Both the position numbers and the translations under genes were made by a program. The notes under the pieces are model-generated. The model was not told the DNA's origin. It saw nothing but the letters and a program-made list of their open reading frames with translations, and did not search any database. DNA of 21,435 nucleotides from a virus: positions 1 through 21,435 of the IMG/VR virus record IMGVR_UViG_3300033146_001267; one strand, 5' to 3'. Positions 14,603 through 21,435 of this stretch are shown here, piece by piece. Each line of letters begins with the position of its first letter. The first letter of the stretch is position 1.

Positions 14603-14650
14603 GAATATCTCCTCTGTTTAAAAGATATTTAAAATCAAACCACAAAACAC

Positions 14651-14679
14651 AATATACTGACTTTCAGATTATTTGTCAA
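14651..14679 (-). promoter_or_regulatory. Sigma-70 promoter of the packaging/structural operon
   Basis: On the minus strand, a perfect TTGACA -35 (14674-14679) and a TATATT -10 (14651-14656) are separated by exactly 17 bases. Predicted transcription starts near 14644, about 42 bases before the resolvase ATG at 14602. A- and T-tracts upstream (14680-14710) could act as an UP element. No comparably good promoter was found further down the operon. Confidence 0.75.
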
Positions 14680-14716
14680 ATTTTTTTTTCACGACAAAAA
14701 AAAACAAAATAAATTA

Positions 14717-14749
14717 TTCAATAAAATTGAACAGTTAATTGATAATCAA
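14717..14749. promoter_or_regulatory. Two short palindromes between the divergent promoters, possible operators
   Basis: TTCAAT-AAA-ATTGAA (14717-14731) and TTGAT-A-ATCAA (14739-14749) are perfect inverted repeats in the AT-rich spacer between the leftward and rightward promoters. The second shares its TGATAATC core with the 23-bp near-palindrome at 16181-16203. They could bind a dimeric regulator controlling both directions. Short AT-rich palindromes also arise by chance. Confidence 0.35.
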
Positions 14750-14769
14750 AAATTAATTTAAAAAATTGC

Positions 14770-14798
14770 TTGACAAAAAAAAGAAAACAGATTATTAT
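14770..14798 (+). promoter_or_regulatory. Strong sigma-70 promoter driving the large noncoding RNA
   Basis: A perfect TTGACA -35 (14770-14775), a 17-base A-rich spacer and a TATTAT -10 (14793-14798). The predicted start (about 14805-14806) coincides with the first base of the GC-rich terminal stem of the RNA element. It is divergent from, and about 90 bases away from, the leftward operon promoter. Confidence 0.8.
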
Positions 14799-15242
14799 GT
14801 TTTTTGAGAGGGCAGGGGTCAAGTCGCAAAGCCGATGGCATAACGAGGAGAACCTGTTTTACTTCCACATGAGAAGTTATTATTTTTGGTGTTCCCTTAG
14901 TATTGTTATTTAACTTTAGTTCTGTAGCAAACTAAGAAATCCAAGAAGAACTAGATGACGTTGTTTGTTTCTAGTAAGTCATGTACAAAAAAAACAAACT
15001 AGGCATGTTTTAATTAACAGTGCTGAAACTGTGGTAACTTGTAAATAGCTAAAATAGTGACGTGGTATAGCCCACAGATGTCACTATCTATTTAACAAGA
15101 ATCATAGTACCATAACATTAGTTACTGTAGCTCTATATCTTTCCTATGAGGGACTTGGATACCTATATTAACTAGACTTACTAGCCTGTCATTCATAGGC
15201 TCTGACAGGAGAGTTATGTCTACACCTTCGTCCAAGCTTCTG

Positions 15243-15262
15243 TTTGGGGGGGTTTGGGGGGG
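15243..15262 (+). repeat. Two tandem TTT-G7 units, potential G-quadruplex in the RNA
   Basis: TTTGGGGGGG occurs twice in a row (15243-15252, 15253-15262), with a further GGGG at 15269-15272. No C-rich partner exists in the element. The runs sit in a loop closed by CTGT (15240-15243) with ACAG (15263-15266). Each G7 can supply two G3 runs, so an intramolecular or intermolecular quadruplex is possible. Confidence 0.7.
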
Positions 15263-15403
15263 ACAGCAGGGGAGTAGGCCGAGAGGGCAAGGGTAAGCCA
15301 CTAACCTCTGGCTCACAAGGAGTTATATAAAGGCGTTAAGGGTTGAGCGAATGAGTGACCAACGGGAACGAATGAGCGATGTATATAGAGGAAGATAATA
15401 TGT

Positions 15404-15430
15404 ACATCATACATCATACATCATACATCA
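15404..15430 (+). repeat. Four tandem copies of a 7-base unit (ACATCAT)
   Basis: ACATCAT is repeated at 15404-15410, 15411-15417 and 15418-15424, with a last 6-of-7 copy at 15425-15430. The unit pairs with GATGTATATA (15378-15387) to make a hairpin, and the repeats allow the 3' strand to slide in register. It is too short and spacer-free to be a CRISPR array. Confidence 0.9.
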
Positions 15431-15540
15431 GAACGAAATAAAAGATAATTCCTTGTGTTCCTGAGGCAGTGACTGATACCCTGCCCTCTCGTTACTGTGA
15501 GGTAGACCAACCTAACTTGAAAACAACAGTCATATAATCA

Positions 15541-16146
15541 CTAGGCATCAAACACTATGCTGAATATCTTGCGATACTTGTTAGCATACGCCTTTATGAA
15601 AGATATTCTTCTCTCTTTAACATCTGCTACACTTAACTTTAGCATGCCAAGTTGATAACTTTTGTCCATCTTCCAATATCCCCATGAATGGAATAATTTA
15701 ACATATCTTTCATAATGTACCTCATACCCTAGCTCTTCCTTTAATGCTATGCTACAAGAGTATGCTTCTTCTTCAAACGTTGTTCTGTATTTCGCTTTAA
15801 GTGGGTATACAAACAATAAGAAAAGCAAGAAATGCAAAAATCGTAAACTAAAAGGTATCGCTAATAATGAAAACAAAGATAATGCTATGAATATTTGAGG
15901 TATGAAATATTGAATATAAAACTTTACTGTACCTATCTTTTCTTTTTTGAGTCTATGCACTTCTTCATGAAATAATATGAAAAATAATTTCTTATTTCCT
16001 CCATTGTTATTTAGGAAAACATTGTTTCCTATTATGATTCCAGCCATTTTTTTTTGTATTTTGAATAATACCTTCCATAACAATCCCTTCTCTACTATCT
16101 TGAAGTCTTTAAAAACATTTAAAACTTCCTGTTTTTTTGCATTCAT
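15541..16146 (-). CDS. Membrane-anchored HExxH zincin-like metallopeptidase
   Basis: A 201-residue protein starting 6 bases after AGAGGAC. Residues 50-65 read LFFILFHEEVHRLKKEK: HEEVH matches the HExxH zinc-binding and catalytic motif. About 60-65 residues later EEEAYS supplies a plausible third glutamate ligand, as in minigluzincins. Between them are two hydrophobic segments (FYIQYFIPQIFIALSLFSLL and a following leucine/phenylalanine-rich stretch) that would make a membrane hairpin, placing the active site on one membrane face. The protein is basic at both ends. Substrate unknown; envelope proteolysis, lysis or superinfection functions are all possible. It is convergent with the noncoding RNA and divergent from the fibre cassette, so it is probably expressed on its own. 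Confidence 0.65.
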   Translation of the reverse strand: MNAKKQEVLNVFKDFKIVEKGLLWKVLFKIQKKMAGIIIGNNVFLNNNGGNKKLFFILFHEEVHRLKKEKIGTVKFYIQYFIPQIFIALSLFSLLAIPFSLRFLHFLLFLLFVYPLKAKYRTTFEEEAYSCSIALKEELGYEVHYERYVKLFHSWGYWKMDKSYQLGMLKLSVADVKERRISFIKAYANKYRKIFSIVFDA

Positions 16147-16203: not shown

Positions 16204-16238
16204 AATGGTTAGGTTTTGTAGCAAAAAGGAGTTTCATG

Positions 16239-16871
16239 ATGTCACAATATACAGAAAAATTTGACCTCTTAATGAGTAACGATGTCTTGGATTTTGTTAT
16301 CGTTATTCGCAAGGAACGAAACCCATTGCCAACAGACGACTATAGCATTGGTATTGAAGAAGGAACTAAGTTTGTTAATAAAATAACAAAAGAAACATTC
16401 ACTTGTGTAAATAACACAGTAGGTATCGCAGAGTGGGTTTCCAATAGTGGTTCATCAGGTGGTCTTCCGTCTGGTAATCATGGTGATTTGTTCTTTAGGG
16501 ATACGCCAACTGTTGTTAATGCGTTACCTATTGGAATGCCAAATCAAGTATTAACTTCAAATGGTATTGATGTTGAATGGAGATTTCCATCAACTGGAAT
16601 ATCAAGAGAAACAAGGGTACTTATAACAAACACTATGAATACAGGAACAAACATAAGTGTAACTTCTTCTGGTCCTGATTATGTTGTAAGTGGTAGTGTT
16701 GGTAATTTATTATCTTCACAAACATTGTTCCGAAATAGTTTACTACAGAAAGTATATCTAAATGGAATGTTGTTGGACAAAGAACTCGATGTTTTATGGG
16801 TGAATAGTCAAACATTTAGTTTGATAAATAATATTATAGACGATGGTGATGAATTAAAAATATTTGGATAA
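16239..16871 (+). CDS. Tail-fibre/appendage protein, short paralogue
   Basis: A 210-residue protein. The ATG at 16239 (MSQYTEKFDLL) is preferred over the one three bases upstream because it lies 7 bases after AGGAG and aligns with the paralogue at 19416. Residues 1-70 form a module (FVIVIRKERNPLPTDDYSIG, EEGTKFVNKIT, FTCVNNTVGIAEW) shared with that paralogue, and both also contain 'VLTSNG.DV.W' near residue 100. The C-terminal part differs and ends in KVYLNGMLLDKELDV followed by DDGDELKIFG, a beta domain that recurs in the next gene. Glycine/serine/threonine-rich beta composition fits a trimeric fibre or base attachment protein. It is the first gene of the plus-strand cassette. Confidence 0.65.
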   Translation: MSQYTEKFDLLMSNDVLDFVIVIRKERNPLPTDDYSIGIEEGTKFVNKITKETFTCVNNTVGIAEWVSNSGSSGGLPSGNHGDLFFRDTPTVVNALPIGMPNQVLTSNGIDVEWRFPSTGISRETRVLITNTMNTGTNISVTSSGPDYVVSGSVGNLLSSQTLFRNSLLQKVYLNGMLLDKELDVLWVNSQTFSLINNIIDDGDELKIFG

Positions 16872-16881
16872 GGAGATTATG

Positions 16882-17763
16882 ATGAAAATTAACGAAAGAG
16901 ATGTAGCCCTAAGGTCTGGCTTAACAAATTACCCTGCTTTAAAAGACTTTATGGATAGAAGAATAATTATACAGCTACCATTTAATGAAAACACTACAAT
17001 AAATGCTGGTGCAAATAATGTAGTGTTGATAGACAGCTCAATGGTTGTAGCTAGTAATTTGTCAATAGGGTTAGGAACTAGCTATAACGGTGGTTTGTTT
17101 GCTTCATTATTGACTGGTACTGTTGGAACAGGTTCTATCAACACTAACTCCGATTCACTTGGCAACATATTAAACATGGTTAAAATAAGAGATGCTACTA
17201 CTCATGATTCAGTAACTGACATCAATAACAGAGAAGTATATGGACTTGTTCAAGCTGTATCAACTGCTTTAGATGGTGATGTTATTGGAGCTTCTGGCTC
17301 TGAAAATGTTCAACTTTCCTTTGTTGTTGTTGATAGTGGTGGCACATTAGTTTTAACAAATGTTGCTGCTGTAATAGAGTTTACACAGCACAATACTTAT
17401 CTTGAAAGAATGAAGCCTACTATTATGCTAGAGGGTGGCAATCCTACTGCTGACGCTTTGGCTGTAGACCCTTTGTATTTTGACCAGGGGTTTTATGTTG
17501 TAACGACAGCTTTTGCCCCTAACGAAGTAATTACTTTGTCTACTGGTAATGGTGCAAGTGCTGGAGTATCAACTCAATCAGGTGACATAATATCTATTGG
17601 AGCTGCTTCTGGTGCGTTTAATAGTAATAACCAGCTTTCTGTATTGAAGAATGGAGTAGAACAAGTTAAAGGAACGGAAGTTATTTATGACTCTTCAGGT
17701 TCGTTTCATTTTGCTTCACCTTTAGATATTGACGATACATTTAAAGTAAAATTTCTAAACTAA
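16882..17763 (+). CDS. Structural appendage protein
   Basis: A 293-residue protein. The start at 16882 (MKINERDVALRSG) is chosen because AAGGAG ends 6 bases before it; that site overlaps the stop of the preceding gene. The sequence is beta-rich and poor in charge, with many Asn, Gly, Ser, Thr and Val residues (TINAGANNVVLIDSSMVVAS, LSFVVVDSGGTLVLTNVAAV). Its C-terminal 45 residues (LSVLKNGVEQVKGTEVIYD, then DIDDTFKVKFLN) resemble the end of the preceding protein, suggesting a shared capping or trimerisation domain. This looks like a virion fibre or decoration protein. I do not recognise the family. Confidence 0.6.
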   Translation: MKINERDVALRSGLTNYPALKDFMDRRIIIQLPFNENTTINAGANNVVLIDSSMVVASNLSIGLGTSYNGGLFASLLTGTVGTGSINTNSDSLGNILNMVKIRDATTHDSVTDINNREVYGLVQAVSTALDGDVIGASGSENVQLSFVVVDSGGTLVLTNVAAVIEFTQHNTYLERMKPTIMLEGGNPTADALAVDPLYFDQGFYVVTTAFAPNEVITLSTGNGASAGVSTQSGDIISIGAASGAFNSNNQLSVLKNGVEQVKGTEVIYDSSGSFHFASPLDIDDTFKVKFLN

Positions 17764-19415: not shown

Positions 19416-20312
19416 ATGTCACAACACACAGAGAAGTATGATATACTAATGAACAGTGGAGCAATAGACTTTGCTGTTATCATACGTAAGGATAGAGACC
19501 CGATACCAACTGATGATTATAGTATTGGTGCTGAAGAAGGCACCAAGTTCGTTAACAAAGCAACAGGCACGGCGTTTACTTGCATTAACAATACAATAGG
19601 CTTGGCTCAATGGGTTCAAGATGGAACTTCTACAGGTGGCCTCCCTATAGGTGTTAGAGGTGATGCCTTAGTGCATAATGGAACTACATGGGTCACATTA
19701 AACATAGGAGCGTCTGGTGAAGTGTTAACATCTAATGGACTTGATGTTGTATGGGGTTCAGCAAGTGGATTGCCTACAGGTGCTATGGGTGACATACTAT
19801 ATCACAACGGAGTTAGTTGGATCGTAAGGCCTGCTGGAAACGAAGCAGATTTACTTAGATTTGTAGCTGGTGTTCCTGTATGGGTTAACTTAATATCTGA
19901 TGGAGTTGATGATGGTGATATGTTAGTATGGAATGCTACAACAACTTCTTATGATAGATTTCCTAGAGGAGTTGAAGGGCAAATATTGCAAATCGTTTCT
20001 AATGTGCCTCGTTGGGTTACGTCTGGTGGTCTAAATAGAATAACAATCACAAGTACGACAGTGCTTGCAGATACAGATATATATGACGCTATTACTTTGA
20101 ACGATTCTTCAAACATAGATTTAACTTTGTTTCCAACGCCTGTTGATGGTAGAGTTATTGAAATTAAAAACTTATCTCCTGAGGTTGCTACAAAAAGAGT
20201 GTTAGCAAATGTTGGTCAAACAATAGATGGGTTCAGTGAATATGTATTAGCTTATAATGAAAGCATTAGACTTATGTTTAACCTTGATGATAACATGTGG
20301 GAATTAAGATAA
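19416..20312 (+). CDS. Tail-fibre/appendage protein, long paralogue
   Basis: A 298-residue protein starting 7 bases after AGGAG. Residues 1-70 (MSQHTEKYDILM, then FAVIIRKDRDPIPTDDYSIG, EEGTKFVNKA, FTCINNTIGLAQWV) are clearly homologous to the protein at 16239. The middle contains repeated 'G..GD.L..NG..W' units (VRGDALVHNGTTWV; AMGDILYHNGVSWI; DGDMLVWNATTTSY), typical of fibre shafts or collar repeats. The end (TLFPTPVDGRVIEIKNLSP, then TIDGFSEYVLAYNESIRLMF and MWELR) has the same layout as the C-terminal domain of the protein at 17844. It therefore combines a paralogous N-terminal anchor with a different shaft and tip, a mosaic typical of host-range modules. Confidence 0.7.
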   Translation: MSQHTEKYDILMNSGAIDFAVIIRKDRDPIPTDDYSIGAEEGTKFVNKATGTAFTCINNTIGLAQWVQDGTSTGGLPIGVRGDALVHNGTTWVTLNIGASGEVLTSNGLDVVWGSASGLPTGAMGDILYHNGVSWIVRPAGNEADLLRFVAGVPVWVNLISDGVDDGDMLVWNATTTSYDRFPRGVEGQILQIVSNVPRWVTSGGLNRITITSTTVLADTDIYDAITLNDSSNIDLTLFPTPVDGRVIEIKNLSPEVATKRVLANVGQTIDGFSEYVLAYNESIRLMFNLDDNMWELR

Positions 20313-20332: not shown

Positions 20333-21435
20333 ATGTATAAAAAGAACTTAAGACGACAATATTTAGACAACATAAAGTTAACTATAGGTGTTTCTTACCC
20401 TTTGACTGTTTCAGCTTTTGACGGTCACATGGCTAAATATGCAGCTTTTTTTAGAGACAATTTTGGTAGCAATGATAACACACAAAACAAAGTATACTTT
20501 AAAATATGCAATCTTTCAACAAGTCAAGAATGGGACAATATGAGATTCTCACAAATGTCTGATGTTGTAACTTGGTGTAATAATAATTTATCTAATGATG
20601 GTTCAATCTTTAATGATAGTGTTGTTATGTATCCATTTTATTATGTTGATGAATCAATCCCTACAATTACTACAATGTATGGAATGAATAGGCTGTATTC
20701 TGCATTAAGAGGTAAGAGAAACTATCAAAAATCTTCTGCAAACACTGCTGTTAATCTTGTAAACACACCAAACATAACAGGCATGTTACAAGACATGTGG
20801 CAACAATTATGGGGGCATACTATTGATTTTAATGTAGGTTTGCATAAACAAATTATATGGTTATCAGCACGTAGCAACAGAAATCTTTATGGGAATTATA
20901 GAAGTGACAAGCATATTGGTTTCAACGGTATAACAGGACAACCACCAGTTAATAGGGCATACTATGATAGTGGTAGTTCTAATGTAGCTGTTTGTCCTTC
21001 ATCAATGACTAGTGATTGGATTATAAATGGTCAGACTAATGGCTCATGTTACGGTTCAATAAACACAGATAATACCTCCTATATGATTGAAGGTGCTAGC
21101 CAAGATTCTGTTAGAAAATTAGGTACCGAATCTATTATGCAATCTAATGACAGTGTTATAAGGGGGTATCAAGTTCAGTACAGTGCTAATACAGACTATA
21201 TGGTTATGGCAGTTAAGCCTGTAGGGATTGATACTGTTGTTATAGATTATGTAGATTTTATCAAATATGATTTACTTGTATGTGGATTCAATCAAGAATT
21301 ACAACAAATAAATGAAAAAGTTATTTCTACACCACCTCCAAGAAGTGATGCTAGAGGTGGAAAGATGATGTTAAGAAAAACCGATTGGATTTTAAGACAA
21401 GAAATAACTAGTCAATTTAGTACAACAAGTAATAG
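20333..21435 (+). CDS. Structural-type protein of unknown family (partial, C-terminus outside window)
   Basis: An ATG at 20333, 7 bases after AAAGGAG, opens a frame of 367 codons with no stop before the window edge, so the gene is cut. The translation begins MYKKNLRRQYLDNIKLTIGV and is rich in Asn, Ser, Tyr and Gly, with aromatic segments (VVMYPFYYVDESIPTITTMY, MWQQLWGHTIDFN). There are Cys residues but no obvious catalytic motif or signal peptide. It continues the fibre cassette with 20 bases after the preceding stop. It may be a fibre, a tip adhesin or another virion protein; I do not recognise it. Confidence 0.65.
   Translation, partial: MYKKNLRRQYLDNIKLTIGVSYPLTVSAFDGHMAKYAAFFRDNFGSNDNTQNKVYFKICNLSTSQEWDNMRFSQMSDVVTWCNNNLSNDGSIFNDSVVMYPFYYVDESIPTITTMYGMNRLYSALRGKRNYQKSSANTAVNLVNTPNITGMLQDMWQQLWGHTIDFNVGLHKQIIWLSARSNRNLYGNYRSDKHIGFNGITGQPPVNRAYYDSGSSNVAVCPSSMTSDWIINGQTNGSCYGSINTDNTSYMIEGASQDSVRKLGTESIMQSNDSVIRGYQVQYSANTDYMVMAVKPVGIDTVVIDYVDFIKYDLLVCGFNQELQQINEKVISTPPPRSDARGGKMMLRKTDWILRQEITSQFSTTSN

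Follow-up and report, generated by a model that had tools for sequence, protein, structure and literature searches.

An uncultured phage carries, between its DNA-packaging genes and its tail genes, a 685-nt stretch (positions 14806-15490, + strand) that we interpret as encoding a candidate large structured noncoding RNA. The sequence analysed, referred to here as the window, is the complete IMG/VR record IMGVR_UViG_3300033146_001267 of 21,435 nt. An open frame of 367 aa (20333-21433, + strand) runs off the end of the record, so that the window covers only part of a larger phage genome; no tRNA genes were found in these 21 kb. Convergent with the stretch is a gene (15541-16146, - strand) for an orphan protein of 201 aa, in which a zinc-protease-like motif (HEEVH) is followed by a hydrophobic stretch and for which no match was obtained in Pfam, PHROGs, NCBIfam or phages. 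Further along, the proteins encoded at 16236-16871 and 19416-20312 (both + strand) possess related N-terminal domains (54% identity over aligned positions), and this common domain is probably a tail-fibre adaptor that is used twice.

Promoters and coding potential

The intergenic region in front of the stretch (203 bp, 19% G+C) harbours two divergent promoters of the sigma-70 type, each matching the consensus at 11 of 12 positions. One of them (TTGACA-N17-TATTAT, 14770-14798, + strand) points into the stretch and places its predicted start at G14806, 8 nt 3' of the -10 box. The other (TTGACA-N17-TATATT, 14679-14651, - strand) faces a RuvC-like gene, a probable small terminase gene, and the genes for the large terminase and the portal. 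Sites of this quality are rare, the promoter scan having returned just three with at least 11/12 matches in the window, namely these two and one intragenic site; when the 208 bp from 14603 to 14810 were shuffled, such promoters on both strands arose in 0 of 3000 cases. No terminator-like site was found 3' of position 15490.

The region from 14618 to 15540 is the sole gap in the window that lacks a stop-to-stop frame of at least 70 aa, and the one listed open reading frame of at least 50 aa in it (64 aa) is located on the minus strand. Two features that had been read from the letters, a length of about 685 nt devoid of a real protein gene and a start exactly at the predicted start of a consensus promoter, are thus borne out. 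Base composition changes at the same place: the G+C content of 14806-15490 is 41%, the highest value among the sampled 685-nt stretches of the window, while the promoter region has 19% and the whole window 34%, and the rise matches the region exactly. In AT-rich genomes, structured RNAs are known to stand out by a raised G+C content.

It is extremely unlikely, in our judgement, that the transcript is instead an mRNA whose structured leader precedes a tiny protein, translated from the ATG at 15216 (26 aa) or from that at 15400 (13 aa). Both start codons do have a Shine-Dalgarno-like sequence at suitable spacing (AGGAG before 15216, GAGGA before 15400), but the 26-aa frame owes its glycine-rich sequence to the runs of G, and both frames are short ones of the kind expected by chance, have no known relative and are situated inside predicted structure.

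Predicted fold of the RNA

The minimum free energy (MFE) of 14806-15490 is -220 kcal/mol, and independent comparisons with dinucleotide shuffles of the + strand gave z scores of -9.2 (20 shuffles), -7.3 (60 shuffles) and -8.3 (24 shuffles). An energy no better than that of shuffled sequence had been named beforehand as a reason to give up the RNA, and the observed values are far from it. Among control folds of 15 positions of the same size on both strands (n = 30), nearly all had z above -2.1, within a range of about -2 to +2; the one clear exception, 16801-17485 (+ strand; z -4.8, 12 shuffles), is intragenic and represents the only other clearly low folding energy of the window. The low energy is not confined to the ends of the molecule: with the closing stem trimmed off, z is still about -3.7 to -4.1, and the inner halves folded alone yield -5.5 (14859-15277) and -5.1 (15278-15468), from which it follows that the internal domains are predicted to be structured independently of the closure.

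The fold also has a preferred strand, since the reverse strand reaches a z of only -4.5 in the same comparison in which the + strand has -7.3. This difference bears on the idea that the stretch acts as DNA, either as a packaging site (pac/cos) or as a recombination site beside the terminase genes, for which its place upstream of the genes for the large terminase and the probable small terminase could be cited. Against it stand a structure that is clearly stronger on one strand and a closure that starts at the predicted +1 of a promoter, a start for which a DNA site would have no need, and we regard such a site as highly improbable.

The ends of the stretch are complementary to each other. Its first 12 nt, GAGAGGGCAGGG (14806-14817), pair perfectly with its last 12 nt, CCCTGCCCTCTC (15479-15490), and the predicted terminal helix (5' half 14806-14827, 3' half 15469-15490) extends to 21 pairs with bulges at a mean pair probability of 0.95. 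Perfect long-range pairing of 12 bp appeared anywhere in 61 of 5000 shuffles, but a 12-bp closure beginning within the first 5 nt in none of the 5000. The 5' closing sequence occurs a second time, as GAGAGGGCAAGGGT, at 15281-15294, with 13 of 14 positions identical to 14806-14819; by our estimate, a stretch of the given size would contain a repeat of this kind by chance with a probability of roughly 1/15, which is not negligible. This copy could bind the 3' end in place of 14806-14817, and in a constrained fold the alternative costs 6.7 kcal/mol of stability. In the model of this one sequence, it could represent a switch, an intermediate of folding or a coincidence.

Perfect terminal inverted repeats that enclose a noncoding body are likewise a mark of MITE-like elements, and the stretch could accordingly be a mobile or domesticated element, with the 12-bp repeat as transposon end and a transcript comparable to the inter-inverted-repeat RNA of PLE, for which both the transcripts and a MITE-like reading of them have been described (PMC7567579). 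A target-site duplication is, however, not visible at the ends (TTTTTT / GTTACT), the element occurs as a single copy in the record, and its matches in phages and plasmids do not go beyond tandem-repeat and short chance similarities. Moreover, end repeats explain neither the internal long-range helices nor the preference for the + strand, and we consider this origin very unlikely.

Within the closure, several helices are predicted with high probability. The most extensive hairpin (15028-15108; 81 nt, 31 pairs; z -4.4 when folded alone) contains a 62-nt hairpin (15038-15099) with 11 + 8 + 4 = 23 pairs at probabilities of 0.82-0.99, and 8 further pairs lie outside the latter. It is followed by an imperfect hairpin of 21 pairs (15119-15174; probabilities 0.93-0.98). 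A perfect long-range helix of 10 bp (14971-14980 with 15175-15184) has a pair probability of just 0.34. The 3' domain (15314-15457) is closed by a 13-bp helix (15314-15326 with 15445-15457; probability 0.99) and includes a hairpin with a 10-pair stem, GAUGUAUAUA/UAUGUACAUC (15378-15408; probability 0.99). The structural elements of the sequence-only reading, i.e. the 12-bp perfect end-to-end stem extending to 21 pairs, the 13-bp long-range helix, the 62-nt hairpin of about 23 pairs and several further hairpins (e.g. 15119-15174 and 15378-15408), were thereby all recovered.

Four exact repeats of TACATCA (15403-15430) sit directly 3' of a Shine-Dalgarno-like sequence and the ATG of the 13-codon frame that begins at 15400; from 15409 on they are predicted to be unpaired and are possibly a linker. 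The long unpaired stretches of the model (15338-15377 and 15409-15431) could also offer binding sites to phage or host mRNAs, and antisense or sponge action is common among phage ncRNAs. Nevertheless, 12-mers complementary to the minus-strand mRNAs of the window number 2, against 2.0 expected, with none near a start, and an antisense or sponge RNA appears distinctly unlikely to us.

The G-quadruplex motif GGGGGGGTTTGGGGGGG (G7-T3-G7, 15246-15262), from which G runs continue to 15293, has no counterpart on the two strands of the rest of the window and holds its sole runs of at least 6 G or C. Like the second copy of the closing sequence, this motif goes beyond what the sequence-only reading had listed. 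It plays a central part in another possible reading, in which the AT-rich region 14603-14805 unwinds and the G-rich transcript stays on its C-rich template at G7-T3-G7, where it primes replication as an R-loop. The parallel would be RNAII of the ColE1 plasmids. A promoter region of 19% G+C followed by a strongly G-skewed transcript that bears a G-quadruplex motif is in line with such priming, as is the minimum of the window's cumulative GC skew close by (16158), and a precedent by name is ARRPOF, a structured RNA in the replication region of a Fusobacterium plasmid (PMC12641628). The turn in skew is not independent evidence, however, because it coincides with the change in gene orientation, and neither a DnaA-box cluster (a single chance match was obtained) nor replication genes occur in the window. 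We view a replication primer as unlikely.

Search for known families and relatives

A scan of 14640-15560 with Rfam 15 (4227 models) gave no match at the gathering score and none at E values up to 10. Since the sequence-only reading had raised the possibility of a divergent member of ROOL or GOLLD, these families deserve particular mention. The covariance model of ROOL (RF03087) searched singly did not match, in a search that recovered the ROOL of Lactobacillus salivarius pMP118 as positive control (E 1e-29); the conserved-region model of GOLLD (RF02032) searched singly likewise did not match, in a search in which the control genomes produced sub-threshold matches only. Because neither model matches, we do not file the RNA under ROOL or GOLLD. 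Of the earlier proposal, then, the large closed RNA with its own promoter is well supported by the sequence statistics, and a divergent member of these families is not supported.

Sequence relatives were equally scarce. In distant mode, blastn searches against phages (with the whole region and with three pieces of it) and against plasmids returned only tandem-repeat matches or chance matches of about 20 nt, and two 16-nt pieces of the RNA had 72 and 10 matches in IMG/VR, none of which extended past chance. Relatives were also sought through the terminase, RuvC-like, portal and tail-adaptor proteins. The sole close relative is a 5.4-kb IMG/VR contig (L002), whose large terminase and portal are 87 and 91% identical to those of the window; it begins inside the terminase gene and consequently does not include the RNA region. 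The other protein relatives are remote terminases or portals only. Portals of about 26% identity occur in Rhizobium phage L338C, Pseudomonas phage SM1 and Aeromonas phage HJ05 (80-110-kb phages), which have no comparable gap near their portal or packaging genes. The phage lineage is scarcely sampled among the sequences searched, from which records close to the window may have been missing.

ORF-free gaps of 590-830 nt were observed 3' of remote large-terminase genes at three further loci (L081:2950-3627, L084:8483-9314 and L087:9007-9593). Their + strands have z scores from -0.6 to -3.4, with L081 and L084 at about -3 (moderately better than shuffles), and none of the three matches an Rfam family.

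Proposed nature of the RNA

The sequence statistics establish a promoter, the lack of an evident gene, a closure, internal structure and a strand preference. In this combination of an ORF-free region, a promoter of its own and a fold beyond shuffles on the strand predicted to be transcribed, 14806-15490 has the general features of a large structured ncRNA, and we hold it to be likely that a structured noncoding RNA exists here. It is best described as a putative orphan of the general kind of giant structured phage RNAs, outside the known families, the feature itself being clearly beyond chance. As for the explanation of the locus as a whole, we favour, with somewhat better than even confidence, a stand-alone structured ncRNA of the phage that acts like ROOL and GOLLD or like the RNA of ICP1.

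What follows on the making of the transcript and its 3' end, on its abundance and oligomerisation and on any function is inferred. Host RNA polymerase would start the RNA at or near G14806, using the sigma-70 promoter of near-consensus sequence that stands back to back with the one for the packaging and structural operon. The transcript would fold into a molecule that is closed end to end and contains two or more internal domains; its ends would be held together and shielded from exonucleases by the terminal stem. As there is no intrinsic terminator 3' of the RNA, processing would generate its 3' end. During infection it may then accumulate to a high level as a scaffold or homo-oligomer, as in the case of ROOL, GOLLD and the ~800-nt RNA of ICP1, with the unpaired loops and the G7-T3-G7 quadruplex motif as possible points of contact in the oligomer. 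By analogy with these RNAs and with the abundant ncRNAs of phage K, an abundant RNA scaffold is the most likely, though tentative, mechanism, to which we attach less than even confidence.

We think it rather unlikely, though worth stating, that the RNA founds a class of its own among giant phage RNAs, without kinship to ROOL or GOLLD; it would form closed multi-domain particles joined via the G-quadruplex block and would be able to switch between two mutually exclusive closures of the 3' end (by 14806-14817 or by 15281-15292). For the role in packaging or in the capsid that had been speculated upon, the evidence is the position beside the terminase genes, and nothing in our results lends it further support; the RNA would be transcribed from a promoter of its own and away from the packaging operon.

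Giant phage RNAs, of which few families have been described, rank among the largest RNAs with no assigned function. If the preferred reading of a stand-alone phage ncRNA is correct, an independent example outside the known families would show that giant RNAs have been acquired repeatedly by phages. An RNA with an unusually clear predicted start, closure and strand-specific fold would furthermore be a compact new object for studying the role of giant RNAs.

Comparison with known giant RNAs

ROOL and GOLLD often adjoin tRNA islands. Like OLE they form homo-oligomers, which in ROOL and GOLLD are RNA-only nanocages (PMC12286853). Similar to the RNA predicted here, ROOL (RF03087) is a large structured ncRNA (~550-600 nt) of phages, prophages and plasmids that has no protein gene inside, but its covariance model does not match our sequence and tRNA genes are missing nearby in the fragment. 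GOLLD (RF02032) resembles it as a giant phage RNA of 700-800 nt or more with a well-structured 3' part and differs in the same two respects, namely a conserved-region model without a match and the lack of tRNA genes nearby in the fragment.

Long orphan transcripts are known from other phages as well. The most abundant transcript of ICP1 is an orphan ncRNA of ~800 nt, which is located between gp139 and gp140 and shares with our candidate the ORF-less gap and the lack of tRNAs (PMC7567579); its expression has been shown, whereas the RNA described here is known from sequence alone. Phage K possesses two abundant lncRNAs, lnc001 and lnc002, which are likewise long phage ncRNAs, lnc001 having its own promoter (PMC9241854). 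These differ from our RNA in being sequenced transcripts, as opposed to a prediction from the letters, and in their place beside tRNA genes. The inter-inverted-repeat transcript of PLE is comparable as an ncRNA bounded by inverted repeats (PMC7567579), but PLE is a satellite element and its transcript has antisense matches to gene leaders, of which we found none above chance.

With respect to folding energy, the RNA of this phage differs from its possible counterparts. The ICP1 ncRNA region has a z of about -1 to -3, not strongly above chance, compared with about -8 here, and the ROOL of pMP118 (taken as the central 543 nt of locus L104) has z scores of ~0 and -1 on its two strands. Given these last values, ROOL itself does not stand out by an extreme folding energy, and the predicted fold of the RNA described here is by far the stronger of the two.
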